Assembly: GCF_000195295.1 (NCBI RefSeq)
Contig: NC_015388.1
Span: forward strand, 1,054,001-1,118,000
Length of the DNA: 64,000 nucleotides
Reading direction: 5' to 3'
Source of the DNA: Desulfobacca acetoxidans DSM 11109
GTDB taxonomy: Bacteria; Desulfobacterota; Desulfobaccia; Desulfobaccales; Desulfobaccaceae
Below, piece by piece: positions 10,121 to 49,416 of this stretch. Numbering within the stretch: position 1 is the stretch's first letter; every line of letters begins with the position of its first letter. The position numbers and the translations under genes were made by a program. The notes under the pieces were generated by a model. The model saw only the letters and a program-made list of their open reading frames with translations. It ran no database searches and was not told the DNA's origin.

Positions 10121-10564
10121 ATGACGATACATTGTCGTAAAAGATGGTTGTCTTTGATCTTAACCCTGGCCCTGAGCCTCGGTTTAGCTGGCATCGCCAC
10201 GGCTGGCCATTGGGGTATGGACGGATGCTGCGACATGGATATGGGCCACGGACGGGGAATGCACGGCATCCGGCTGACACCCGAACAGGCAGCCCAAGTG
10301 TTTGATCTACATCAGAAATTTATGAATGATACGGTCGACTTGCGCAAACAGATGATGATCAAGCGGGCAGAGCTGGGAGAGCTGTGGCGGGCCAAGGAAC
10401 CGGACAAGGCCAAGATTGCGGCCAAAGAAAAGGAGATCAGCGTCCTGCGCGACCAATTCCGGGAAAAGGCTATAGCACATAAGATCGAGATGAAGAAGAA
10501 TTGTCCTATGATGGGCCGCGGCATGGGGCCCGGCCCAGGCCAACCTCCCCAAGGTGGCAAGTAG
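10121..10564 (+). CDS. Spy/CpxP/ZraP-like periplasmic protein
   Basis: 147 residues with a clear signal peptide (hydrophobic LSLILTLALSLGLAG, cleavage near ATA-GH at ~28). The mature part starts with a His/Met/Cys/Asp-rich stretch (DGCCDMDMGHGRGMHG) suited to metal binding, then LTPEQ and a long amphipathic helix typical of Spy/ZraP proteins, then a Met/Gly/Pro tail. A role as periplasmic metal-stress chaperone or sensor is likely from the family. A rho-independent terminator follows, so it is probably monocistronic. Confidence 0.85.
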   Translation: MTIHCRKRWLSLILTLALSLGLAGIATAGHWGMDGCCDMDMGHGRGMHGIRLTPEQAAQVFDLHQKFMNDTVDLRKQMMIKRAELGELWRAKEPDKAKIAAKEKEISVLRDQFREKAIAHKIEMKKNCPMMGRGMGPGPGQPPQGGK

Positions 10565-21204: not shown

Positions 21205-21630
21205 CTTGTATAAAAACAGTGAGCCGTGAGCCGTGAGCAGCAAAAACATTATTGTGAGCAGCCGCCACGATTCTGTTTTTATGCTTCGTTGTGTTCGGCA
21301 GAACATGTGAACTTGTATAAAAACAGTGGGCCGTGAGCCGTGAGCAGCAAAAACATTATTTTGAGCAGCCGCCACGATTCTGTTTTTATACTTCGTTGTG
21401 TTCGGCAGAACATGTGCACTTATATAAAAACAGTGAGCCGTGAGCCGTGAGCAGCAACAACATTATTTTGAGCAGCCGCCACGATTCTGTTTTTATGCTT
21501 CGTTGTGTTCGGCAGAACATGTGCACTTATATAAAAACAGAATGTATTTGTAGGGTGGGCAATGCCCACCCTACGCCTCTACGCCTCTGTTTTTATGCTT
21601 CGTTGTGTTCTTGAGAACATGTGAACTTAT
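21205..21630 (+). repeat. Tandem array of 107-bp repeats
   Basis: Three units of exactly 107 bases start at 21205, 21312 and 21419, nearly identical. A fourth, rearranged unit of 100 bases starts at 21526, and a fifth truncated one at 21626. Each unit carries an inverted repeat TATAAAAACAG/CTGTTTTTAT, a GTGAGCCGTGAGCCGTGAGCAG stretch (about 21220-21241), and CTTCGTTGTGTTC...GAACATGTG. Unit 4 replaces its middle with a GTAGGGTGGGCA/TGCCCACCCTAC hairpin. An inverted copy lies at ~29690-29815. Confidence 0.9.
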
Positions 21631-26881: not shown

Positions 26882-28198
26882 ATGGAAAAGAAACCGCGGT
26901 CTGAGAGTACGAAGCGCCTGGCAGACCCTTTCAACCGTTTCTTCCCAGGTGACAATTTCGTGAGAGAAAATTTCAAGTTGGATCGGACTGCAATGCCTCC
27001 TGAGTTGCAGCTTGTCCTTGCCTGTCTGCGGAAAGCGCCGCATGAACAGGAAGTGCAGCAGATCGAAAGATTGAGCCGGGGGAAAATCGCCTGGCCCGAT
27101 TTTCTGAGGTGGGTGGACCGTCACCGGGTAGCCCCTTTGGTTTACGAGAACCTCCGGCGCTATGGCGGAAACGGTGTGCCGGGAGCCGTCAGGAATGCTC
27201 TCCGCTCCCGCTTCGAATCCAACGCCCAGCGAAGCCTCATCAATGCCGCGGAATTGCTGCGCCTTCACACCCTCTTACGGGAGAACAACATTCCCTGCAT
27301 TCCTCTCAAGGGAAGCCTGTTGGCCCTGCAGGTTTACGGCAACCTGGCCCTGCGCCATGCCGGGGATATAGACCTGCTGGTCGATAGAAACCACGTCGAC
27401 CGGGCCGATCTGCTTCTGCGTCAAGATTATTCCAGACTATCGCCGGGTCCTTACCTGACCCCTTTTCAGAAAAGAGCGTTCTGTCGCTTACAGGAACATT
27501 TAGTTTATACCCATGAGAGCAAAAAGGTAAAATTAGAACTCCACAGTCGCCTGTTCTATAACCGACCTTATTGTGCCACGGATTTTACCCGACTCCTGGA
27601 GCGGCTGCAATCCATAACCGTGGCGAACTCTTCGCTGCTGGCGATGCCCTTAGAGGATACCGTCCTCTATCTGGCTGATCATGGAGGGCAGCATAATTGG
27701 AGCCGTCTGTTTTGGCTGAATGACCTGGCCGAAATCATCCGCTGGAATTGGCTGCCTGATTGGGACGCATTGCTGGCGGGCGCTCTCGAAAAAGGCGTAA
27801 CCCGGCCTTTGGTGCAGGGGGTAGTTCTGGCACATCATCTCTTGCAGGCGCCTCTCCCGGAGGCAATCCAGGCCCATGCCGCGCAGGACCGCATGGTGAA
27901 CTATCTGGTTGATGCCGCCTTAAGACGGATCTGCACGCTCGAACAACAGAAACCACCGATAACCGAAATTCTCTACGGCAATATAATTCATAGGTCCAGG
28001 TTGTATTCTGAGGTTAAATATAAGATTAAAGTTATGCAGCGAGTTTTATTGTACAGCCGGGACTGGGGAACTATTCGACTGCCCGATATCGCCTTTCCCA
28101 CCTTCTTTATGATGCGGCCCTTCCTGTGGCTGTACCGGAAACTAGGCCGCTATCGGGAAAAATCAGGCCGCAGGCGGACTGAAGGGAGGAATACCTGA
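26882..28198 (+). CDS. Lasso-cluster nucleotidyltransferase-like protein
   Basis: 438 residues with the PF14907-type nucleotidyltransferase core: LKGSLLALQVY (142-152), then R-H-A-GDIDLLV (158-167), giving the paired Asp of the polymerase-beta fold. Such proteins are recurrent members of lasso-peptide clusters, where they are linked to tailoring of the phosphorylated peptide. Located 296 bases upstream of the precursors on the same strand, so it probably belongs to the cluster. The SD (GAAAGG) is very close to the ATG; a later start at codon 38 is possible. Confidence 0.82.
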   Translation: MEKKPRSESTKRLADPFNRFFPGDNFVRENFKLDRTAMPPELQLVLACLRKAPHEQEVQQIERLSRGKIAWPDFLRWVDRHRVAPLVYENLRRYGGNGVPGAVRNALRSRFESNAQRSLINAAELLRLHTLLRENNIPCIPLKGSLLALQVYGNLALRHAGDIDLLVDRNHVDRADLLLRQDYSRLSPGPYLTPFQKRAFCRLQEHLVYTHESKKVKLELHSRLFYNRPYCATDFTRLLERLQSITVANSSLLAMPLEDTVLYLADHGGQHNWSRLFWLNDLAEIIRWNWLPDWDALLAGALEKGVTRPLVQGVVLAHHLLQAPLPEAIQAHAAQDRMVNYLVDAALRRICTLEQQKPPITEILYGNIIHRSRLYSEVKYKIKVMQRVLLYSRDWGTIRLPDIAFPTFFMMRPFLWLYRKLGRYREKSGRRRTEGRNT

Positions 28199-28494
28199 TC
28201 CCTGGGGCATTCAACTGTCCTTTAAGATTGACAACAAAGCCCTTCTGAATGAAACTGTTATAATAACGCATATTGCGGCGTATGCCATCCAGGAGCCCGC
28301 CGGGACTTTTCTTATTTTAACAACAGCTTCCTCACCGGGGTCATTTCATAGTCCCGTTATTTAAATGGTCCGGTTACTGAAAATTTAATTGATTTTTTTG
28401 ATAGCGCGATGTATAAGTTTATGAACCTAGGGAAAATTTAAGTAGACCGGTATGACTATTTCTTTTTTAGCTAGACGAACAGGGAGGTTTTCAT
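28199..28494. other. Intergenic leader before the lasso precursors
   Basis: Almost 300 bases, AT-rich towards the right. No convincing -35/-10 pair was found. The SD AGGGAGG of the first precursor is at 28481-28487. Confidence 0.4.
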
Positions 28495-28692
28495 ATGGAC
28501 CGCATGAATCGCTCAGGCAACAGGTTGAATAACCCCGCCTTGGATAATCAATCACCCGGACCTAAGGGCGGTTGCGCTTCGTCTCCCCGCAGCCCCTGGA
28601 AGGCTCCTCACCTAGTGGATATCTCCTTACTGAATGAGACATCAGCTCATACAGGGATGGTTTATGACGGGGAAATTGGGGCGGGATCATAA
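28495..28692 (+). CDS. Lasso peptide precursor 1
   Basis: 65 residues. A 50-residue leader ends SPWKAPHLVDISLLNETS, with the W-x-x-P-x-L motif recognised by B1 proteins and Thr at -2, both standard for lasso precursors. Predicted core: AHTGMVYDGEIGAGS. Ala1 and Asp8 would form an 8-residue macrolactam ring and the tail ends in Ser, the residue phosphorylated by HprK-like lasso kinases. Strong SD AGGGAGG. First of three tandem precursors. Confidence 0.85.
   Translation: MDRMNRSGNRLNNPALDNQSPGPKGGCASSPRSPWKAPHLVDISLLNETSAHTGMVYDGEIGAGS
28592..28690 (+). repeat. 99-bp duplicated leader-core block (copy 1)
   Basis: Identical to 28938-29036 at 98 of 99 bases; the only difference is G28679 versus C29025, changing Gly to Ala in the tail. 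It covers the end of the leader and the core, so a recent duplication made the second precursor. Confidence 0.9.
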
Positions 28693-28839
28693 TATTATGT
28701 TATATTTATGATATTCACCGGTTCCCTGACTTAAGGGTGCTAATTGTTCGGTCCAGAGAGCAACCTGGGGAGTTTTTAATTACAAGTCCGGCCAAGATGT
28801 AACCGTAATTTTTCCCATGCTCAAAAGGGGGGTCCCAAA

Positions 28840-29044
28840 ATGGGATGCCCCCATCCCTTGGCAAATAGATTGAACTTACCCCCCCGAAAGCAACCCATCC
28901 TGCCCCCCTCAAGCCAGTTCCTCCCTGCCGTCTAGCGGCCCCTGGAAGGCTCCTCACCTAGTGGATATCTCCTTACTGAATGAGACATCAGCTCATACAG
29001 GGATGGTTTATGACGGGGAAATTGCGGCGGGATCATTATCTTAG
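28840..29044 (+). pseudogene. Lasso peptide precursor 2, one base out of frame
   Basis: An ATG at 28840 opens a frame aligning with the other leaders (R10-L-N-L-P-P) but stops at 28933. The leader end and core (SGPWKAPHL..., AHTGMVYDGEIAAGSLS) continue in the next frame to the stop at 29042-29044. Removing one C from the C7 run at 28879-28885 restores one frame with a leader of exactly 50 residues, like its neighbours. It may be a slipped-strand (phase-variable) or decayed copy, or an assembly error in a homopolymer. Confidence 0.75.
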
Positions 29045-29063
29045 CAAATAGAGTGGACTTAAA

Positions 29064-29264
29064 ATGGAACGCCGACATCATTTAGAAAGCAGGTTGAATC
29101 TACCTCCTAAAATGAATCTATCCCGCCGTTCTCCAGGCAATGGCACCCCGCCGCCTAGCAGTCCCTGGCAGGCTCCTCACCTGATGGAACTCTCCTTATT
29201 GCATGAAACCTCAGCCGGGACAGGTGGAGCAACAGACATGTTAGCCGGTTATGGCCCATCTTAA
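29064..29264 (+). CDS. Lasso peptide precursor 3
   Basis: 66 residues with a 50-residue leader ending SPWQAPHLMELSLLHETS; the W-x-x-P-x-L motif and Thr(-2) are conserved. Predicted core: AGTGGATDMLAGYGPS. It shares Ala1, Thr3-Gly4, Asp8 and a C-terminal Ser with precursor 1, but the other ring residues and the tail differ, so the product would be a different lasso peptide. The SD is weak (GAGTGGAC), suggesting lower or coupled expression. Confidence 0.85.
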   Translation: MERRHHLESRLNLPPKMNLSRRSPGNGTPPPSSPWQAPHLMELSLLHETSAGTGGATDMLAGYGPS

Positions 29265-29822
29265 CAATCTACCAAACGATTGCTTGCTATCCTCCCACGA
29301 GCACTCAGCTTGTACCGATTTTCGAGCTGGTGGCAATCTGCCATCATGCGTAAGTCCTACCAGCAAGGGCGGATCTTGTATTCCCTGTACCTCTTCCCCA
29401 AATTCTCGCGGATATTCTTTTGGGTAAATTATACCTGTAGGGGCGAATCTTGTATTCGCCCCCCCATATAAAGTCATCATCCTCTCAGGAACACAACGAA
29501 ATATGAAAGAATGGTGGCCTAAGCCTCCTGGCCTGCACACTCATCTTTCATATAAAATTTTTTCTCATCGACCATGTTAAACAAAAGCGGCGGCCATGGG
29601 CCGCCCTATCCCATTATCGATAATTTATCGGCAATTAACTCATAGGGCGGGCCGCGCCCGCCGTCTTTGAGATTACTGTTTTCATACAAATTGGCATGTT
29701 CTGATAATCACGACGAAGCATGAAAACCGAACCTTGGCGGCTGCTCCCAATAATGCTTTTTCGGCTCACGGCTCACTTATCACTGCCCACCGCCCACTGT
29801 TTTCATACAAGTGCAATGGTCT
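29265..29822. repeat. Repeat-filled gap between precursors and cyclase gene
   Basis: Holds a GTAGGGGCGAATCTTGTATT-CGCCCC hairpin (~29440-29463), a copy of the AACACAACGAAATATGAAAG / GCCTCCTGGCCTG element (~29487-29537), a GGCGGCCATGGGCCGCC hairpin (~29589-29606), and at ~29690-29815 an inverted, diverged copy of the 107-bp unit found in tandem at 21205. No gene. The precursors and the cyclase gene converge on this gap. Confidence 0.75.
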
Positions 29823-31751
29823 TCAGAACCGCTGGAGGAAGATCCCGACCCCCAACCCCCGTAGGAGAATGGTTCCGGCCTCACTTGAATTCTTGCGGGT
29901 GGTCCCCTGCTGAATCGAGCGGAGCACCCGCCGCATCTTCGGCAGGTCGAGGATCGCCGGGGCCAGGTTATGCCTTTCCAGGTCTTGCAGCGCCTCTTCG
30001 ATGTCCGTGGCCTGATCCCGCAGGCGGCGGCAGATATCAGCCGCCTGCAGCCCCCGGCGGCGGTTGAGGCGTACCAGATCCGGCAGCAGATCGCGGAAGG
30101 CCCGCCGCAGCACTGCCCGATTACTGCCCTCGGCGGAATGGTAAATATCAGGTATGCCCAGGCAGAATTCGAGCAGACGCTTGTCCAAAGTCGGATCGCG
30201 CGTCTCCAGGCCAAAAGCGCCGCTGCTTTCGCCCCATAAGCCCCCCCCCGGCCACCGGCCGGGCTGGATGATCCGGTACCTGGTGGCTAAGGGGTTGTAG
30301 TCTGTATTAAAATAGGGATCATGACCCTGGGCCCGCATGAGGCGATCCAGATGCAGGGACTGCGCCCAGCGGGGATGGATGGCCGAGTAGGGCAGGAACA
30401 CCGGGCCATTGGGGCAGAGGCCGTATTCCAGGCGACTGAGGATTGGAAGGACCAAAGGGCCCGCCAGGAAGCGTTTGACCCCGGCGAAAAGGGAGAGACC
30501 CTGGCGCTGTTGCAGATCCAGGAATTTCTGCCTGAACCGGCTGAGCTGTCCGGACCCCAGATACGGCCAGAGGTTCACCGCTCCCCCGGTCCAGGAGACG
30601 GTGGCGTTGCCTCCCTGGCCGGTCAAGAGCACCCGGAAGCCATGCTCCCTGACCCTATCGAGGAGCGCTATAATCCAGAAATAATTGCCGGCGGCATGGC
30701 CCGGTTCATCGTGAACCTGCAGCATACGGTCGATGCCTGCCAACGGAGAAACCTCTGCCGCCCTGATCCTGGTAAGGTCAATATTACCGGCCTGGTCGGC
30801 AGTGGCCTGGGCGAAGGCCGACTCATCGCCGAAGCGGTGTTTGAGGGTATAAGGACTGGTGTCCTCCAGGGGGACAGAGGTGAAGGCGGACAATCTTTGC
30901 CCCTGTTGGGCCAGCGCCCGGGCCGCCAGGGCGCAGACCGAACCCGAATCCAAGCCGCCGCTCAAGGTGGCGCTTATCGCCGTAGTCGACCGCAGACGGG
31001 CTCGCACCGCCCGATCATAGTGCTCCAGGAAGGCCTCCAGATAGTCTTCCTCTCGGGGGAAGTAAACCCGAGGGGCGTTTTCGGCAAACCAGTAGCGCTT
31101 GATCTTTACTTCGCCGGCTTCGATGATCAGATAATGGGCCGGAGGCAGGCGGTAGATCCCGGCATGGGCGGTGAGAATGCCATCGCCCGGCCAACTGGTG
31201 AGGGTCTGGGCCAGTCGCAGCAGGTTCGGCACCCGAGGCACTTCCGGGAGCGCCAGCAGGGCCTTGCGGCTGGAAGCGAAGGCGAAAAATCCCGGCCCCT
31301 GGATATAACAGATTCCAGTATTGCCATGATGATCCCGGGCCAGGAATAAACGGCGATTCTTCAGGTCCCAGAGGGCAAAGTGCCAATCGCCCAACAGGTG
31401 ATGGATGCACTCCTCCCCCCAGCGCTCGTAAGCCCGATGGATGAGCCGGGTGTCGGACAAAACCCGGCCTTCCGGGGCTGACAGGCCCAGTTCCGCAATC
31501 AGGTCTTCCCGATTATCCAGAAAGGCCCCGGCGGTCAACACCCAACCGCGTTCCGGGTCATGATACGGGAAAGATTTTTCGGTCTCTTCCGGGGTGCAAA
31601 AACAGAACTGGCAGCCCAATCCAACCGGGCCATCGCTCCACTCGGTGGAGCCATCCACCCCCCAATAGGCCATGGCCTGCTGCATGACCGCCAGTTTCGT
31701 CTTAGCCACCGGGGCGCCGTCTAATCTCAGATATCCTAATATGCCATTCAT
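29823..31751 (-). CDS. Lasso peptide cyclase (asparagine-synthase-like, protein C)
   Basis: 642 residues. The N-terminal glutaminase-like domain starts MNGILGYL, with Asn in place of the catalytic Cys2, so it should not hydrolyse glutamine. The synthetase domain carries the ATP PP-loop SGGLDSGS (264-271). In lasso systems this enzyme adenylates the ring Asp/Glu and joins it to the new N-terminus, here predicted Ala1-Asp8. It converges on the precursor genes across the repeat gap and follows the methyltransferase by 236 bases. Confidence 0.92.
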   Translation of the reverse strand: MNGILGYLRLDGAPVAKTKLAVMQQAMAYWGVDGSTEWSDGPVGLGCQFCFCTPEETEKSFPYHDPERGWVLTAGAFLDNREDLIAELGLSAPEGRVLSDTRLIHRAYERWGEECIHHLLGDWHFALWDLKNRRLFLARDHHGNTGICYIQGPGFFAFASSRKALLALPEVPRVPNLLRLAQTLTSWPGDGILTAHAGIYRLPPAHYLIIEAGEVKIKRYWFAENAPRVYFPREEDYLEAFLEHYDRAVRARLRSTTAISATLSGGLDSGSVCALAARALAQQGQRLSAFTSVPLEDTSPYTLKHRFGDESAFAQATADQAGNIDLTRIRAAEVSPLAGIDRMLQVHDEPGHAAGNYFWIIALLDRVREHGFRVLLTGQGGNATVSWTGGAVNLWPYLGSGQLSRFRQKFLDLQQRQGLSLFAGVKRFLAGPLVLPILSRLEYGLCPNGPVFLPYSAIHPRWAQSLHLDRLMRAQGHDPYFNTDYNPLATRYRIIQPGRWPGGGLWGESSGAFGLETRDPTLDKRLLEFCLGIPDIYHSAEGSNRAVLRRAFRDLLPDLVRLNRRRGLQAADICRRLRDQATDIEEALQDLERHNLAPAILDLPKMRRVLRSIQQGTTRKNSSEAGTILLRGLGVGIFLQRF

Positions 31752-31867
31752 GCTAAATAGTAATTTCCTGTCGCATGGTAAGAGAATAGCAACAATTCAA
31801 CTAGCCAAGTGAAGGTTTAAAAAGCCGCCCCACCATCTCCCCAAACGGCTTAGGATTTCCTACAGGT

Positions 31868-31916
31868 GGAAGTTCGGTACAGGAGGAAGTTCGGTAACGC
31901 CGACCTCCAGGTCGGC
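31868..31916. repeat. Direct repeat and GCCGACCT hairpin
   Basis: GGAAGTTCGGTA occurs twice (31868-31879, 31885-31896), followed by a perfect 8-bp hairpin GCCGACCT-cc-AGGTCGGC (31899-31916). It lies between the methyltransferase and cyclase genes and could affect read-through. Confidence 0.55.
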
Positions 31917-31987
31917 AGCTCAGAAACTGTTACCGAAAATATTCCAATGCGCCGGGCGGGATAGCGAAGCGCCTCCCACCTTCCGGG

Positions 31988-33082
31988 TTATTGTTTCTCA
32001 GGCCAGATCATGATACTTGCCTGATCGTGTTCCGCATTGAGACAGACGAGATCGCCCTGCCGGACCGGCAGTTCCTCCGGAAAGAGGTGAATCACCGGCC
32101 ACCAACATGACTTAAGCGGCGGACGGTTCTCAAAAGTGAGATCATCGCCAAAATTCAGCCGATTCCATTGCATGAACCCCTGGGCCAGGCCGTTTTGGGT
32201 TACGGCAACCTCCAACCGGCGGTGCTCTCGATCAGGATAGCGAACGGCTCGCAAGTCAAAGCGGAAGATTTCCAACGGCTCGCTCAAGGCCTCAAAAAGG
32301 CCGCCGCCTTCGCCAGTCGTTATCACCGGCGGGGCTAGGGTATTAAATGGGGAGAGATCAAAGCCCATAAATGTGCCCATACGAAAAGACCGCGTTTCTA
32401 AACCGCCCACCAGCATCCCGCCGGCGGCAATGGTTTCGGGCAGGACGCGAGCCTCAGGTGTGAGTAGATGTTTGCGGGCATGGCTGTAGAGGGGCAACAC
32501 GAGCTCGCCCAGAAGATAATTATCCACGATTTCGGCCACCAGGAGATCGGCCCGCCGCGGCAGGTCGGTGCCTACGGTAAGTCTGCTGAGCTCTTTGGAG
32601 ACCACGGTCACGCGGTCAGCCAGGCCGTTGCGGACGATAATGGTGTGCGCCCGTTCGGCGACCAATGGCTCTTTTTCGCAGGTGATGACCTGTGCCGCTC
32701 CCGCCCTGGCCGCCAGCATGGCCAACAGTCCCGTGCCCGCTCCGATTTCCAGTACCAACATGCCCGGCTGCACGAAGCGGTTCAAGGCCCTGGCGTAGGT
32801 TTCGTTTCGCAGGGTGTCGTTCACAATGTTGAAATGCCACCCTGGCGCTGATTTTCGTACGGCGTGATGGGTCAGGTAACGAATTCTCGGATCATCCGGC
32901 GCCAGCCTTCGGGCCTGGAGAGCCAAATCCGGCGAGAGATAGCACTGCTTCTTGGTCCGTCTCAATAAGAGAGCCAGACGGGCCAACCGTTCGGGAAAGT
33001 CGGGCTTGTCTTCAATGGCCCGAATCATTCTGGCGATATCATCCGGAAACTTACTCAGCTCCATCTTACCGCAATTGTACAT
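31988..33082 (-). CDS. PRMT-like SAM-dependent methyltransferase
   Basis: 364 residues. SAM motif I is LEIGAGTGLL (111-120), an acidic post-I residue is in TCEKEP, and EIVDNYLLGE (184-193) matches the double-Glu loop of protein arginine methyltransferases. A C-terminal beta region follows. The predicted lasso cores contain no Arg, so it may act on another group of the peptide, on a cluster protein, or be unrelated. It is co-directional with the lasso genes and flanked by them. A start seven codons later is possible. Confidence 0.75.
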   Translation of the reverse strand: MYNCGKMELSKFPDDIARMIRAIEDKPDFPERLARLALLLRRTKKQCYLSPDLALQARRLAPDDPRIRYLTHHAVRKSAPGWHFNIVNDTLRNETYARALNRFVQPGMLVLEIGAGTGLLAMLAARAGAAQVITCEKEPLVAERAHTIIVRNGLADRVTVVSKELSRLTVGTDLPRRADLLVAEIVDNYLLGELVLPLYSHARKHLLTPEARVLPETIAAGGMLVGGLETRSFRMGTFMGFDLSPFNTLAPPVITTGEGGGLFEALSEPLEIFRFDLRAVRYPDREHRRLEVAVTQNGLAQGFMQWNRLNFGDDLTFENRPPLKSCWWPVIHLFPEELPVRQGDLVCLNAEHDQASIMIWPEKQ

Positions 33083-33128
33083 AAACCGCTGGTCTCACGT
33101 CATTCAGATTCCGTACGAAAAATTTTAT

Positions 33129-33534
33129 TGTAGGGGGGAATCTGGTATTCGCCCCGAGATGCAGGTATTAGCCCCGTAGGAGCAGGCGAACACGAGGTTT
33201 GCCCCTACATTTCGGCTATCACACGAATCTCCGACAGGCGAAGAATATATATTGTAGGGGCGAATCTGGTATTCGCCCCGAGATGCAGGTATTAGCCCCG
33301 TAGGAGCAGGCGAACACGAGGTTTGCCCCTACATTTCGGCTATCACACGAATCTCCGACAGGCGAAGAATATATATTGTAGGGGCGAATCTGGTATTCGC
33401 CCCGAGATGCATGTATTAGCCCCGTAGGAGCAGGCGAACACGAGGTTTGCCCCTACATTTCAGCTATCACACGAATCTCCGACAGGCGAAGAATATATAT
33501 TGTAGGGGCGAATCTGGTATTCGCCCCGAGATGC
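33129..33534. repeat. Tandem array of 124-bp repeats
   Basis: Units start at 33129, 33253, 33377 and 33501 (period exactly 124), three full and a 34-base fourth, almost identical. Each begins TGTAGGGGCGAAT and carries TTTGCCCCTACA about 75 bases on, so each can form a large hairpin with nested stems. It splits the lasso operon between B2 and the methyltransferase. Confidence 0.93.
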
Positions 33535-33555
33535 TTTTTGGAAGGCTATCTGTCA

Positions 33556-34002
33556 TCATTTCCCGTCCTCGGCGAAGGTGGCGATGATGGTGAAACCTGC
33601 CATTCCACGCCGCCCGGTGAGAATCCGCTCTCCACACCGCAGCCAGGCGTGTGCCTGGAGTTGGGCCTCGCCTTCTTTGGCCAGGCCCAGATACAGCGTG
33701 CTGGACACCCCGCGGCGTTTGAGCATGGCCTTCCCGGCGATAGCCTGGGCCAGGCAACGGCAGTCCCAGGGCAGGTGGCGGCTGGCGGTGGCCACCGCCC
33801 AGGAGATGCGATCCAGCAGCGCCACGGGTGCCATTCCCGACTCCTCCGGCGAGGTGGCCATGTGTCGGCCCAAAACCGGGGCAATCCGCCGAAAGGGCAG
33901 GATCAGGATGGCCAGCCGGGCGATCCCCAGCCAGAAGGCCGCCTCGAGCAGGCTACCACGCTCCGACGCAGACAGGGCCAGGAACTTACCGAGTCGGCTC
34001 AT
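33556..34002 (-). CDS. Lasso leader peptidase domain B2 (transglutaminase-like)
   Basis: 148 residues from the ATG at 34002 (SD AAGG), overlapping the B1 gene. The Cys-protease core has PWDCRCLAQA (catalytic Cys ~81/83) and QAHAWLRCG (His ~118), the order found in lasso B2 proteins. A hydrophobic stretch (LAILILPF) lies near residue 32. It cuts the leader after Thr-Ser so that Ala1 becomes free for ring closure. Confidence 0.9.
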   Translation of the reverse strand: MSRLGKFLALSASERGSLLEAAFWLGIARLAILILPFRRIAPVLGRHMATSPEESGMAPVALLDRISWAVATASRHLPWDCRCLAQAIAGKAMLKRRGVSSTLYLGLAKEGEAQLQAHAWLRCGERILTGRRGMAGFTIIATFAEDGK

Positions 34003-34285
34003 CAAATACCTTGATCAGGTTGTCCTGGGCCAGTTCGTTTAAGAAGACCAACACATCGTGTTGGCACTGCGAAGCTTCGACCTCAAATTCCTGCAGCAGG
34101 ATGGCGCATAGGTCGGAGACCGGGCGGGCCTGTTCCAAAAGAACCCAGATACGGCTGCCGACAGGGTCCAGGCCGTAGTATTTGCCGTTGGCCACACTCA
34201 TGAGGGCGGTCTCGCCGTCCAGATCACAGGAGACCAGGTCATCAGACCTTTGAATGGTCTGGTTCAAACCGATGGATTGATTCAT
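33986..34285 (-). CDS. Lasso leader-binding protein B1 (PqqD-like)
   Basis: 99 residues with a PqqD/RRE fold pattern: beta strands (LVSCDLDGETALMSVANGKYYGLDPVGSRIW shown by positions ~17-47) and three helices. It binds the leader, with W-x-x-P-x-L as the likely docking motif, and presents it to B2 and C. The SD AAGGAG is 11 bases from the ATG. Its 3' end overlaps B2, so the pair is translationally coupled. Confidence 0.9.
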   Translation of the reverse strand: MNQSIGLNQTIQRSDDLVSCDLDGETALMSVANGKYYGLDPVGSRIWVLLEQARPVSDLCAILLQEFEVEASQCQHDVLVFLNELAQDNLIKVFDEPTR

Positions 34286-34321
34286 GCGGATTGTTACTCC
34301 TTGCCGGGAACTATTGGCCCA

Positions 34322-35179
34322 TTAAAAAACCGGCTCCCCGTTTGCAGTCAGGTAGCCGAACTGTTGCATAACTTCCCGATGGTCCCGGATGATCCGGGCC
34401 GCCTGGGCCGGCGTCAATTCCCGGCGCCAGGCCCCCCAGCCGTCTTCCCGAAAGAACCTTTCAGTTTCGGGCGGTCTTTCCCGGAAGCCGCATTCCTGCT
34501 CCTGGCGCTGGAGTTCCCGAAAATCACTGAACTCCACGGCCTTTCGCACCCGCGCCGGATCATCGGGCAGTCCGGCAAACTGCGCCGCCTCAGCAAAGGT
34601 TTTCTGAGGCTGCTGTTTCATATCCTCATAGCGCAGCACCTTCACCGGAATGGGCGCCGCCAGCCAGCTCAGAACATGGGCGCTCCAGGTAAGCAGACGT
34701 TGGCGCAATTGGTCGGCCAGTCGGCCGTTACCGGCGGCCAGGGCGAATCCCTCATCGCCCATGCGGTCGATAACGGTATCGAGGTCGCGGCTGGCATGAT
34801 TGGCAAACGCGACGGCCACATCAAGGGGATTGCGGATAAGGTAAATGGCTCGACTCCCGGTGGCCGCGAGCAGGGGGCGGCCGTCGGCGGCGTAGGTATA
34901 GGCATCGTGCACCTTTAAGAAAAGGACTTCCTTGGCCTCGGCGGCCAGGCGCTCATAAACCTCGGGGCGCAGCCGGTCGATCTCCGCGGCAGTAAGGTCC
35001 GAGGCTTCGATGCCCGTCATCTCATCGAATAAGGTTCGGGCGCTGGCTATCGGTCCGCCATCCAGGTCGTTAATGTTTGCCGGGGCTTCACCGCCGCGCC
35101 TCAGATTCGTCAGAAAGATGCGCAGCCAGGTGTTGCCGGATTTGGGATAGGAGGCCAGCCAGATGATGCCGCTCTTCAT
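34322..35179 (-). CDS. Sulfotransferase in the lasso cluster
   Basis: 285 residues from the ATG at 35179, which overlaps the kinase stop as ATGA. The 5'-phosphosulfate loop YPKSGNTW (11-18) and the 3'-phosphate motif RNPLDVAVAFANH identify a PAPS-dependent sulfotransferase of the Sulfotransfer_1 type. Translational coupling to the HprK-like kinase and B1 implies a role in tailoring. Possible acceptors are Ser, Thr or Tyr of the cores; this is inference. The longer frame upstream lies inside the kinase gene and is unlikely. Confidence 0.9.
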   Translation of the reverse strand: MKSGIIWLASYPKSGNTWLRIFLTNLRRGGEAPANINDLDGGPIASARTLFDEMTGIEASDLTAAEIDRLRPEVYERLAAEAKEVLFLKVHDAYTYAADGRPLLAATGSRAIYLIRNPLDVAVAFANHASRDLDTVIDRMGDEGFALAAGNGRLADQLRQRLLTWSAHVLSWLAAPIPVKVLRYEDMKQQPQKTFAEAAQFAGLPDDPARVRKAVEFSDFRELQRQEQECGFRERPPETERFFREDGWGAWRRELTPAQAARIIRDHREVMQQFGYLTANGEPVF

Positions 35180-36111
35180 GCCCAATCCTCCTCTACCAGA
35201 TCGGCCAGCTCTGTCAGGCGAAAGGGAGTCCGGGGTCGGACCAGGCGGCTTACCCGGCAATGTTGCGCCGCCTGGCCGCACTGTTCAAAATGGCGTTTTT
35301 TTCCTAAGGTCCCGGCCAGGAACTGCGGGCGGTAGGTGTGGCGCATGAGGACGGTAAGTTTGTCCAAGCCCTGGAGAGGAATGAGTTCAAGCTCTTGGGA
35401 GTTGCTCTCCGCCAGTTCGTAAACCCGTTGGAGCGGCGAAGGGTTCCGGGAAAAACCATCCTTCAGGGGGAGGCCGTATTTCTCCAAGCCGGCTCTCACC
35501 AAGGGTAAACCTCTGGGGTCTCTCCCTAGTTTTTTTAAGGCGTCAGCCCAGAGTTTGAGTTGCGGATAGGCCGATATGACCAACGGAGTCCCTGATGAGG
35601 CAAAAGAGATTACGCAGACATCGTCGGCCATAATCCGGTAGCCCCGCTGATGCAGGGCTTCGGCCAGGGTGGATTTGCCGCAACCGGAGAGCCCCACAAA
35701 GACGGCGGCGCCGCCGTTGACCTCAACGGCGCAGCCATGCAGCGGCAACAGACCTCGCTGCTGCAGGAGCGCGGCCAAGGCGGAACCCAACAGAAAGAGA
35801 CGCACCTCGTTGTCCTGGGCCCCGGCGGCGCGTTCGATGATGATCTGCTTCCCCGCAGTTACGAGATATTTGGCGATAGTATTGAGTTTGAGGAGAAAGG
35901 CCTCGGAATTAACCTGGAAACAGACTCCCTGTCGTTGGACCGACTCCAGGCCGTCAGGAACCGTACCGTAGCGAATAGTGACTTCGGCGGCTCCTTCGGC
36001 CGGCAGGAGCTCCGGGCAGGGCAGGGCGCTGGCAATCGTCAGGCCAAAGGCCCGGTAATAGTAGGGCGTCGGGCAGTTGTCACCGGAGCGCGACAGATTG
36101 GAGGATACCAT
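35176..36111 (-). CDS. HPr-kinase-like lasso peptide kinase
   Basis: 311 residues. Walker A GLSGCGKST (140-148) follows the LHGCAVEVNG strand and is followed by RGYRIMADDVCVI, the arrangement of HPr kinase-like proteins. Homologues in paeninodin-type clusters phosphorylate the C-terminal Ser of the lasso precursor; both intact precursors here end in Ser. First gene of the minus-strand operon behind a near-consensus promoter. Confidence 0.87.
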   Translation of the reverse strand: MVSSNLSRSGDNCPTPYYYRAFGLTIASALPCPELLPAEGAAEVTIRYGTVPDGLESVQRQGVCFQVNSEAFLLKLNTIAKYLVTAGKQIIIERAAGAQDNEVRLFLLGSALAALLQQRGLLPLHGCAVEVNGGAAVFVGLSGCGKSTLAEALHQRGYRIMADDVCVISFASSGTPLVISAYPQLKLWADALKKLGRDPRGLPLVRAGLEKYGLPLKDGFSRNPSPLQRVYELAESNSQELELIPLQGLDKLTVLMRHTYRPQFLAGTLGKKRHFEQCGQAAQHCRVSRLVRPRTPFRLTELADLVEEDWA

Positions 36112-36183: not shown

Positions 36184-36212
36184 ATTATAAAAAAGTTGCC
36201 TAGTTAAGTCAA
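36184..36212 (-). promoter_or_regulatory. Promoter of the lasso modification operon
   Basis: TTGACT (36212-36207) and TATAAT (36189-36184) with a 17-base spacer on the minus strand, about 70 bases before the kinase start. The remainder of 36112-36413 shows no gene. Confidence 0.65.
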
Positions 36213-47631: not shown

Positions 47632-49416
47632 TTACACCAAACCGCTGGCCTGTAACTCGGGAACCCCGGTGGCGGGTTCCTCCTCCTCGGACCCGAATTG
47701 CAGGAAGTATAATTTGGCGTATACCCCGCCCTTGGCCAACAGCTCGGCATGCCGCCCGGCTTCGACGATCCTACCGTTGTCCAACACCACAATGCGATCC
47801 GCATCCCGGATGGTTGACAGTCGGTGGGCAATGACCAGAGTTGTCCGGCCTTGAATCAGGTTGTCCAGGGCCTTTTGGACCTCCCGCTCGGCTTCGGAAT
47901 CCAGGGCCGAAGTCGCTTCATCTAGAATAAGAATGGGGGGGTCTTTAAGCAAGGCGCGGGCGATGGCCACCCGCTGACGTTCACCGCCGGAGAGCATTAC
48001 CCCCTGTTCGCCGATGATCGTGTCCAGCCTCTGGGGCAGGTTTTGAATAAAGTCCCAGGCAAAGGCCGCCTGGGCCGCCTGAATGATTTCCGCCTCGCCT
48101 GCCTCGGGACGACCATAGGCGATATTGTTGCGTACGGTGTCATTAAAGAGAAACGTCTGCTGCGTTACAACACCGATCTGACCCCGCAGCGATCTTAGAG
48201 TCACCTCTCGGATGTCATGATTATCAATGGTGATAGCTCCCCGGGTGACTTCGTAAAAGCGCGGTACCAGATTTACCAAGGTAGTCTTGCCAGCCCCGCT
48301 GGGACCCACCAGGGCTACCACCTCACCTTTTTTTACGGTCAGATTGATATTCTGTAGAGCGAGTCGGTCTTCGTAAGTGAAATCAACCTGCGCGAAGCGG
48401 ATTTCCCTGGCTATCGGGGGCAGGGTCACGGCGTTCGGGCGATCTCGAATCTCCGGTTCCAGGTCCAAGATCTCATACACCCTTCTGGCCGCCGCCATGC
48501 CCTCCTGCAAAGAATTATTGATGTTGCTCAAACTCTTGATGGGTTGATACAACATCAGCAGGGCCGCCAGAAAGGAAAAAAAAGTACCTGGAGTGGAAGT
48601 TCCCTGGATTACCTGATAGCCGCCATAGGCCATGATGGCGGCGATGCCAAATCCTCCCAAAAGCTCCATCACCGGCGACGAAATGGCCTTGGTGGAGACA
48701 TTTTTCATCAGCAGACGGAAGAATTTTAGATTTTCCTGATAGAATCGCTCAATTTCATAGTCCTCGCGACCGAAAGCCTTGACAATATTGCTGCCCACGA
48801 GGGTTTCTTGCAGGTGGGTGTTCAGGCGACTCATCGAGACCTGACTCGAAGTGGAGATTCGCCGCAGACGTCTGCCGAATTTGATGATGGGCAGAACTGC
48901 AGCCGGAAAGACTATCATGGCGATCAAGGCCAGCCTCCACTCCCGATAAAAAATCACTCCTACCAGACCTATGATGGTAAAGACGTCTTTGAGGAAATTA
49001 GTGACCACCCGGGAAACTGAGCTCTGCAACAGGTTGACGTCAAAGGTTACCCGGGAAACCAACAGGCCGGTAGCGGTGCGATCAAAAAAGAGCTGCGGCA
49101 GGGCCATATATTGCCGGTAGAGGGCGTCGCGCAGGTTGGTAATAATCATACCGCCGACATAACTCATCAGGTATTCGTGGGTGTAGGAGAACAGACCCTT
49201 GAGGAAATACAGGATAATTACCCCACCGGAAAGCCAGATTACCATGTCGAGACGTTTGCCGAAAAAGATGTCATCCATCGCCGGTTTGATCAGAAAGGCA
49301 ATCAGGGCGGTGATCCCGGAGACGCCCAACATTGCCAACATGGCGATAAGCAGCCGCCACCAGAATGGTTTCACCTGCTGTAACAGACGGAAATATAATT
49401 GCCGGAATTGGGACAT
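47632..49416 (-). CDS. msbA: Lipid A export ABC transporter MsbA
   Basis: 594 residues, half-transporter with six membrane helices (~20-310) and an ATPase domain with Walker A GPSGAGKTT, signature LSGGERQRVAIARALLKDP and Walker B ILILDEATSALD. Flips lipid A-core across the inner membrane. First gene of the lpxK-waaF-gmhB-waaC run. It is not a lasso exporter by position. Confidence 0.93.
   Translation of the reverse strand: MSQFRQLYFRLLQQVKPFWWRLLIAMLAMLGVSGITALIAFLIKPAMDDIFFGKRLDMVIWLSGGVIILYFLKGLFSYTHEYLMSYVGGMIITNLRDALYRQYMALPQLFFDRTATGLLVSRVTFDVNLLQSSVSRVVTNFLKDVFTIIGLVGVIFYREWRLALIAMIVFPAAVLPIIKFGRRLRRISTSSQVSMSRLNTHLQETLVGSNIVKAFGREDYEIERFYQENLKFFRLLMKNVSTKAISSPVMELLGGFGIAAIMAYGGYQVIQGTSTPGTFFSFLAALLMLYQPIKSLSNINNSLQEGMAAARRVYEILDLEPEIRDRPNAVTLPPIAREIRFAQVDFTYEDRLALQNINLTVKKGEVVALVGPSGAGKTTLVNLVPRFYEVTRGAITIDNHDIREVTLRSLRGQIGVVTQQTFLFNDTVRNNIAYGRPEAGEAEIIQAAQAAFAWDFIQNLPQRLDTIIGEQGVMLSGGERQRVAIARALLKDPPILILDEATSALDSEAEREVQKALDNLIQGRTTLVIAHRLSTIRDADRIVVLDNGRIVEAGRHAELLAKGGVYAKLYFLQFGSEEEEPATGVPELQASGLV

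Follow-up and report, generated by a model that had tools for sequence, protein, structure and literature searches.

What would a sulfotransferase use as sulfonate donor in the lasso-peptide cluster of a bacterium whose genome gives no match to an adenosine 5'-phosphosulfate (APS) kinase? This question is raised by a 64,000-nucleotide stretch of Desulfobacca acetoxidans DSM 11109 (G000:C1:1054001-1118000, hereafter the window, to which all positions refer), an acetate-degrading, sulfate-reducing bacterium (PMC3156406) with a genome of 3,282,536 bp in a single contig. Positions 26882-36111 contain a lasso-peptide cluster with the genes B1, B2 and C, two intact precursors and a broken one, and four additional enzymes: a kinase (K), a nucleotidyltransferase (N), a sulfotransferase (S) and a methyltransferase (M). 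We consider it likely that this is a two-peptide lasso cluster in which S and M are pathway enzymes rather than passengers. S has lost contacts to the 3'-phosphate of the usual donor, 3'-phosphoadenosine 5'-phosphosulfate (PAPS), and the sharper form of our best explanation, put forward tentatively, is that it would be a natural APS-using sulfotransferase rather than a PAPS-using one. The genes are the following.

26882-28198, plus strand: N, nucleotidyltransferase of family PF14907 (NTP_transf_5), 438 amino acids (aa), E 3.5e-65, D-I-D motif intact.
28495-28692, plus strand: precursor A1, 65 aa, from open reading frame (ORF) and leader/core motif scan, ribosome-binding site AGGGAGG.
28840-29044, plus strand: broken third precursor, leader (ATG 28840) and core in different frames.
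29064-29264, plus strand: precursor A2, 66 aa, from ORF and leader/core motif scan.
29823-31751, minus strand: C, asparagine-synthase-like lasso cyclase, 642 aa, SGGLDS motif, no Cys2 (M-N-G).
31988-33082, minus strand: M, methyltransferase with the protein arginine methyltransferase (PRMT) fold (PRMT/PrmA-like), 364 aa, from profile and motif comparison.
33556-34005, minus strand: B2, lasso leader peptidase (transglutaminase-like), 149 aa, lasso_biosyn_B2 110.8 bits (cut-off 33).
33986-34285, minus strand: B1, PqqD-type precursor recognition element, 99 aa, lasso_PqqD_Bac 85.5 bits (cut-off 80).
34322-35179, minus strand: S, Sulfotransfer_1 (PF00685), 285 aa, E 2e-21.
35176-36111, minus strand: K, HprK-related lasso kinase, 311 aa, overlapping S by ATGA.

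ORFs and profile matches confirmed the inventory given by an earlier note on this DNA (B1, B2, C, two intact precursors and four extra enzymes), including the overlap between kinase and sulfotransferase. B2 is the sole PF13471 protein of the genome. Both intact precursors carry what is expected of lasso precursors, a conserved leader motif (here W-x-x-P-x-L), Thr(-2) and an Asp or Glu within core positions 7-9 (here Asp8). The predicted cores are AHTGMVYDGEIGAGS for A1 (28645-28689) and AGTGGATDMLAGYGPS for A2 (29214-29261), each with an Asp8 ring and a C-terminal Ser, and neither contains Arg or Lys. A1 and A2 are homologous, with a BLOSUM62 local score of 126 over 64 aa. The broken third copy, which the earlier note had missed, matches A1 at its 3' end in 100 of 103 positions (97%, 28938-29040), and this near identity of its last 103 bp suggests that it was duplicated or converted recently. 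A related precursor was found in the lasso locus L047 of genome G153, with the W-x-x-P-x-L motif and the core ATSGLATDSATPAGSK, close to that of A2.

K contains the four residues His-Lys-Asp-Asp (His125, Lys146, Asp163, Asp164) of lasso kinases with C-terminal Ser substrates (PMC9266682, PMC8498205). Since both cores end in Ser, the proposal of an HprK-like kinase acting on a C-terminal Ser fits well. The clusters of paeninodin, ThcoK and SyanK share with this one such a kinase and substrate, whereas D. acetoxidans adds N, S and M and no D exporter was found in the window. As to N, the earlier note had it as an extra enzyme, which holds and recurs in lasso loci, but overlooked its likely partnership. 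A PF14907 protein with an intact D-x-D motif next to a kinase in the same lasso cluster is what would be expected of a PsmN-type enzyme. In pseudomycoidin (PMC8498205) the kinase phosphorylates and the PF14907 nucleotidyltransferase then adds a sugar onto the phosphate; by analogy, N is probably the phosphate-glycosylating partner of K. The psm cluster of Bacillus pseudomycoides (PsmK and PsmN) has in common with ours B1/B2/C, the HprK-like kinase, the nucleotidyltransferase and the C-terminal Ser. It differs in gene order and is described with kinase and nucleotidyltransferase as tailoring genes, while D. acetoxidans adds a sulfotransferase and a PRMT-fold enzyme, has two precursors and is a sulfate reducer.

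From these relatives a pathway can be proposed. B1 would present the precursor, B2 would remove the leader by a cut behind Thr(-2)-Ser(-1), and the ring between Ala1 and Asp8 would be closed by C. K would phosphorylate the C-terminal Ser prior to folding and N would put a sugar on the Ser phosphate as in pseudomycoidin. S might then sulfonate a hydroxyl (Tyr, Ser, Thr or the sugar), although not as an ordinary PAPS enzyme, and M might methylate something other than Arg.

Related loci were looked for in 395 genomes of the phylum, 25 of which have B2 above the curated cut-off, and the surroundings were read for some of these. K and N were frequent among the loci so read and the set N/K/B1/B2/C recurs, PF14907-type N being present also in L037, L039, L047, L050, L051, L053, L056, L087 and L089. 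Locus L047 holds a homologue of the whole cluster, made up of N, B2, B1, S, two K genes, C and the precursor mentioned above, but without M. The two HprK-like kinase genes of G153 are in tandem and adjoin the sulfotransferase (L047 11097-12835). The S subfamily, defined as matches over 300 bits, was found in 3 of the 395 genomes (G000, G153 and G078), all of them with B2 (chance 2e-4), and the S gene overlaps the K gene in all three. The three proteins form a supported clade (99/99), and S is absent from the other 28 of the 29 genomes in the order of D. acetoxidans. This restriction to genomes with lasso genes, always overlapping the kinase gene, indicates that S belongs to the cluster. Sulfotransferase, nucleotidyltransferase and methyltransferase, all counted by the earlier note among the extra enzymes of the cluster, recur in lasso loci of other genomes.

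The longest ORF of S begins at GTG 35281, and ATG 35179 was judged a better start. The protein retains the 5'-phosphosulfate loop YPKSGNTW, K13, K89, the catalytic H91 and the Arg of the 3'-motif (R116). Two features expected in a PAPS sulfotransferase are changed. The 3'-phosphate-binding Ser, present in 66 of 70 aligned sequences including all close relatives, is Ala124; in the C-terminal loop, the RxG motif that is intact in all close relatives reads R244-E245-D246. In SULT2A enzymes the cofactor contacts comprise an Arg-Lys loop as well as an Arg and a Ser within the 3'-binding motif, and this Ser lies between the catalytic Lys and the 3'-phosphate (PMC8134075). In a leave-one-out comparison S broke 4 of the 62 columns invariant in its relatives (the others broke 1-8), two of the four being S124A and G246D; the p of about 0.02 for this pair comes from a test picked after the changes were seen. 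The end branch of S (0.38) is the shortest of the three lasso S proteins (the others being 0.70 and 0.64), and this together with the concentration of changes in the 3'-phosphate site argues that S is not generally decayed. The nearest solved structures by sequence and fold are Teg12, Teg14 and StaL (about 26% identity), which sulfonate a glycopeptide-antibiotic scaffold and were solved with 3'-phosphoadenosine 5'-phosphate (PAP) bound, whereas the corresponding site of S is altered; the AlphaFold model of S (pLDDT 78.5) best matched PAP-bound Teg12. With a coverage of 37x 454 and 313x Illumina (PMC3156406) and the frame intact on both sides, R-E-D is unlikely to stem from two paired sequencing errors.

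The supply of PAPS is also in question. A profile search with PF01583 found no APS kinase in the D. acetoxidans genome, whereas 11 of 14 diverse controls gave matches, as did 46 of the 48 good-quality genomes that carry a sulfotransferase (among these 46, G082 and G168 had only short weak ones). A CysQ family search does not discriminate, as it matched in 14 of the 14 control genomes. ATP sulfurylase is present, so APS is made, and the genome encodes no PF00685 protein besides S. The other good-quality exception, G074 (contig C18; loci L123 and L129), gave a sulfotransferase match and no APS kinase, with two stop codons in the sulfotransferase stretch. Hence the sulfated product suggested by the earlier note, which presupposes a normal donor, is not supported in that form: S recurs in lasso loci with its catalytic residues kept, but with no APS kinase match and the 3'-phosphate contacts lost, ordinary PAPS-dependent sulfation by S appears doubtful.

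S could still be an ordinary PAPS enzyme if its APS kinase were one not recognised by PF01583, possibly even the HprK-like neighbour K. The fold, the PAP-bound Teg12 and StaL as nearest solved structures and the retention of R116 and R244 speak for this; the recovery rate of PF01583, the loss of the Ser and Gly of the 3'-site, and the lasso-kinase residues of K with two cores ending in Ser make it rather unlikely. Alternatively, S could be inactive or decaying, left without donor since the cluster entered a genome lacking APS kinase. The missing kinase match, the two conserved cofactor residues lost, the absence of S from the rest of the order and the adjacent precursor copy already broken make this a serious possibility, on which we would nevertheless not bet: the ORF is full-length and coupled to K, K13, K89 and H91 are intact, the changes are focused on one sub-site in the shortest branch of the clade, and the third-codon-position GC content of S resembles that of adjacent genes.

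The use of APS as natural donor instead of PAPS is possible, if open to considerable doubt. Loss of the Ser and the change from RxG to R-E-D would remove phosphate contacts and add acidic residues, comparable to an NADP-to-NAD switch, at positions conserved in all close relatives and on two of the four broken invariant columns. The shortest branch of the lasso S clade, and a sulfate reducer that forms APS with its ATP sulfurylase and has no PF01583 match, are consistent with it. Furthermore, five sulfotransferases accept APS with an efficiency roughly 2-5 times below that with PAPS, and an altered 3'-binding motif raises APS use in engineered enzymes: the AST IV mutants S140I, S140E and R132N improve it and the best combination is R132E/S139G/S140I (PMC10638397). 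On the other side, the APS reading is drawn from sequence, R116 is retained, S is a single sequence that the rest of the order lacks, the weak p value comes from a post hoc test, and the sulfotransferases of G082 and G168, two genomes also without a full-length APS kinase match, keep the Ser. The complete scenario, in which S is adapted to APS in a sulfate reducer without APS kinase and transfers a sulfonate from respiratory APS to a lasso peptide that is phosphorylated or phosphoglycosylated, is accordingly offered as an unlikely one that may yet hold.

No sulfated lasso peptide was found in literature searches. The conserved core hydroxyls at positions 3 and 7 were considered as sulfonation site and set aside as uninformative, since they recur in a precursor of L045, for which a search of the cluster gave no S. 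Nor did the relatives of S in alphaproteobacteria point to a pathway role; they are not lasso-linked, and one is flanked by a porin, an aminotransferase and an acyl-CoA dehydrogenase.

The second unusual enzyme is M, the METHYLTRANSFERASE. A joint profile of M and its relatives matched the structures of PRMT7, PRMT9 and PRMT8 at E about 1e-60, while M alone was weak (PRMT_C E 0.03). M has in common with these the fold and the double-E spacing (E184, E193), but not the THW loop, which is replaced by SCWW, so that double E and THW are not found together. In the lasso-linked L049, L087 and L089 the double E is missing in addition to THW, while the non-lasso relative L086 has both motifs. The methylation considered possible by the earlier note is supported in part: M recurs in lasso-type loci, but as neither core has an Arg, M cannot methylate the product on Arg. 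The substrate might, as a guess by analogy with known lasso methyltransferases, be a carboxylate. A fused PqqD-like recognition element was sought in the relatives of M, with weak results (PqqD E 0.008 in L049, hhalign E 0.04 in L045) and nothing in M of the window.

M could also be an unrelated housekeeping methyltransferase lying between C and B2 by chance. It is separated from B2 by a repeat array, has only 23-27% identity to other lasso-linked M proteins, and related proteins are found away from lasso genes in G016 and G301. We regard this as improbable: matches to M of at least 180 bits occur in 8 genomes, in 5 of them inside a B1/C/K locus, M-type genes adjoin K, C or B1 in such loci of G319, G006, G121 and G221, and an M-like N-terminal remnant is found 3' of B2 in G078. 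The PRMT-fold enzyme seems to represent a family of lasso tailoring enzymes that recurs, and one literature search found no description of it. The lasso-type loci L087 (G121) and L089 (G221) contain B1, C, M, K and N but no adjacent B2, a B1-B2 pair being elsewhere in each genome; L087 additionally has a precursor-like ORF (10284-10445) and two genes for PhyH-type dioxygenases.

Several points weigh against the pathway reading. B1, B2 and C are found together as expected of a lasso cluster, with C at 362 bits to lass_lactam_cya, under its curated NCBIfam cut-off of 525. N, A1 and A2 are on the plus strand, opposite to K, S, B1, B2, M and C, and a single transcript from K to C is unproven, as the repeat array sits between B2 and M. 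In G078 the K-S pair is on one contig and B2 on another. The kinase site may vary, as several K-bearing clusters have predicted precursors not ending in Ser; the kinases of these loci (L046, L049, L050, L051, L053 and L056) may have another target. Finally, no product of the cluster has been seen. The C-terminal residues of the precursors were Lys in L046, Thr in L049, Asn or Gln in L050, Arg in L051, and Gly in L053 and L056.

The B1 and B2 genes overlap. Other elements of the region, the first two being consensus matches only, are:

36184-36212, minus strand: sigma-70-like promoter TTGACT-17-TATAAT, 73 bp upstream of K, 11 of 12 positions.
29589-29605, minus strand: terminator-like hairpin downstream of C.
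33126-33534, plus strand: tandem array (124-bp x 3.3) lying between B2 and M and built from a dispersed repeat.

The dispersed repeat, GTAGGGGCGAATCTTGTATTCGCCC, has 9 copies in the window (0 expected), including 33126-33534 and 29437-29461, and is partly arranged as the 124-bp tandem array within the lasso cluster. A second tandem repeat is found at 21205-21540 (107-bp x 3.1, 96% matches). With three exporter-like ATP-binding cassette (ABC) proteins from related loci as queries no dedicated exporter was found in the window, in agreement with the earlier note; the sole match was MsbA (47632-49416), ruled out as lasso exporter because it is the housekeeping equivalog.

The cluster had been reported before. 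A lasso cluster of D. acetoxidans, Desac_0932, is recorded in PMC4289311, which credits two earlier mining studies, differing between them in the precursor assignment, and names Maksimov 2012, Hegemann 2013 and Letzel 2014; it also remarked already in 2014 on HPr kinase and sulfotransferase genes in some lasso clusters. With only one B2 in the genome, Desac_0932 must be the cluster analysed here. That paper analyses neither the supply of the donor nor the cofactor site, and does not deal with the methyltransferase or the broken precursor. The cluster itself is therefore known, and K, N and S all have precedents in lasso clusters; what is new is that the donor site is altered where the genome gives no APS kinase match, and that a PRMT-fold enzyme recurs.

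Even if S is dead, a sulfotransferase gene in a cluster does not amount to a sulfated product until donor supply and cofactor site have been checked. If S does use APS, it would be a natural exception to the rule that biological sulfonation needs PAPS, matching what was engineered in 2023, and a ready tool for APS-based sulfonation.

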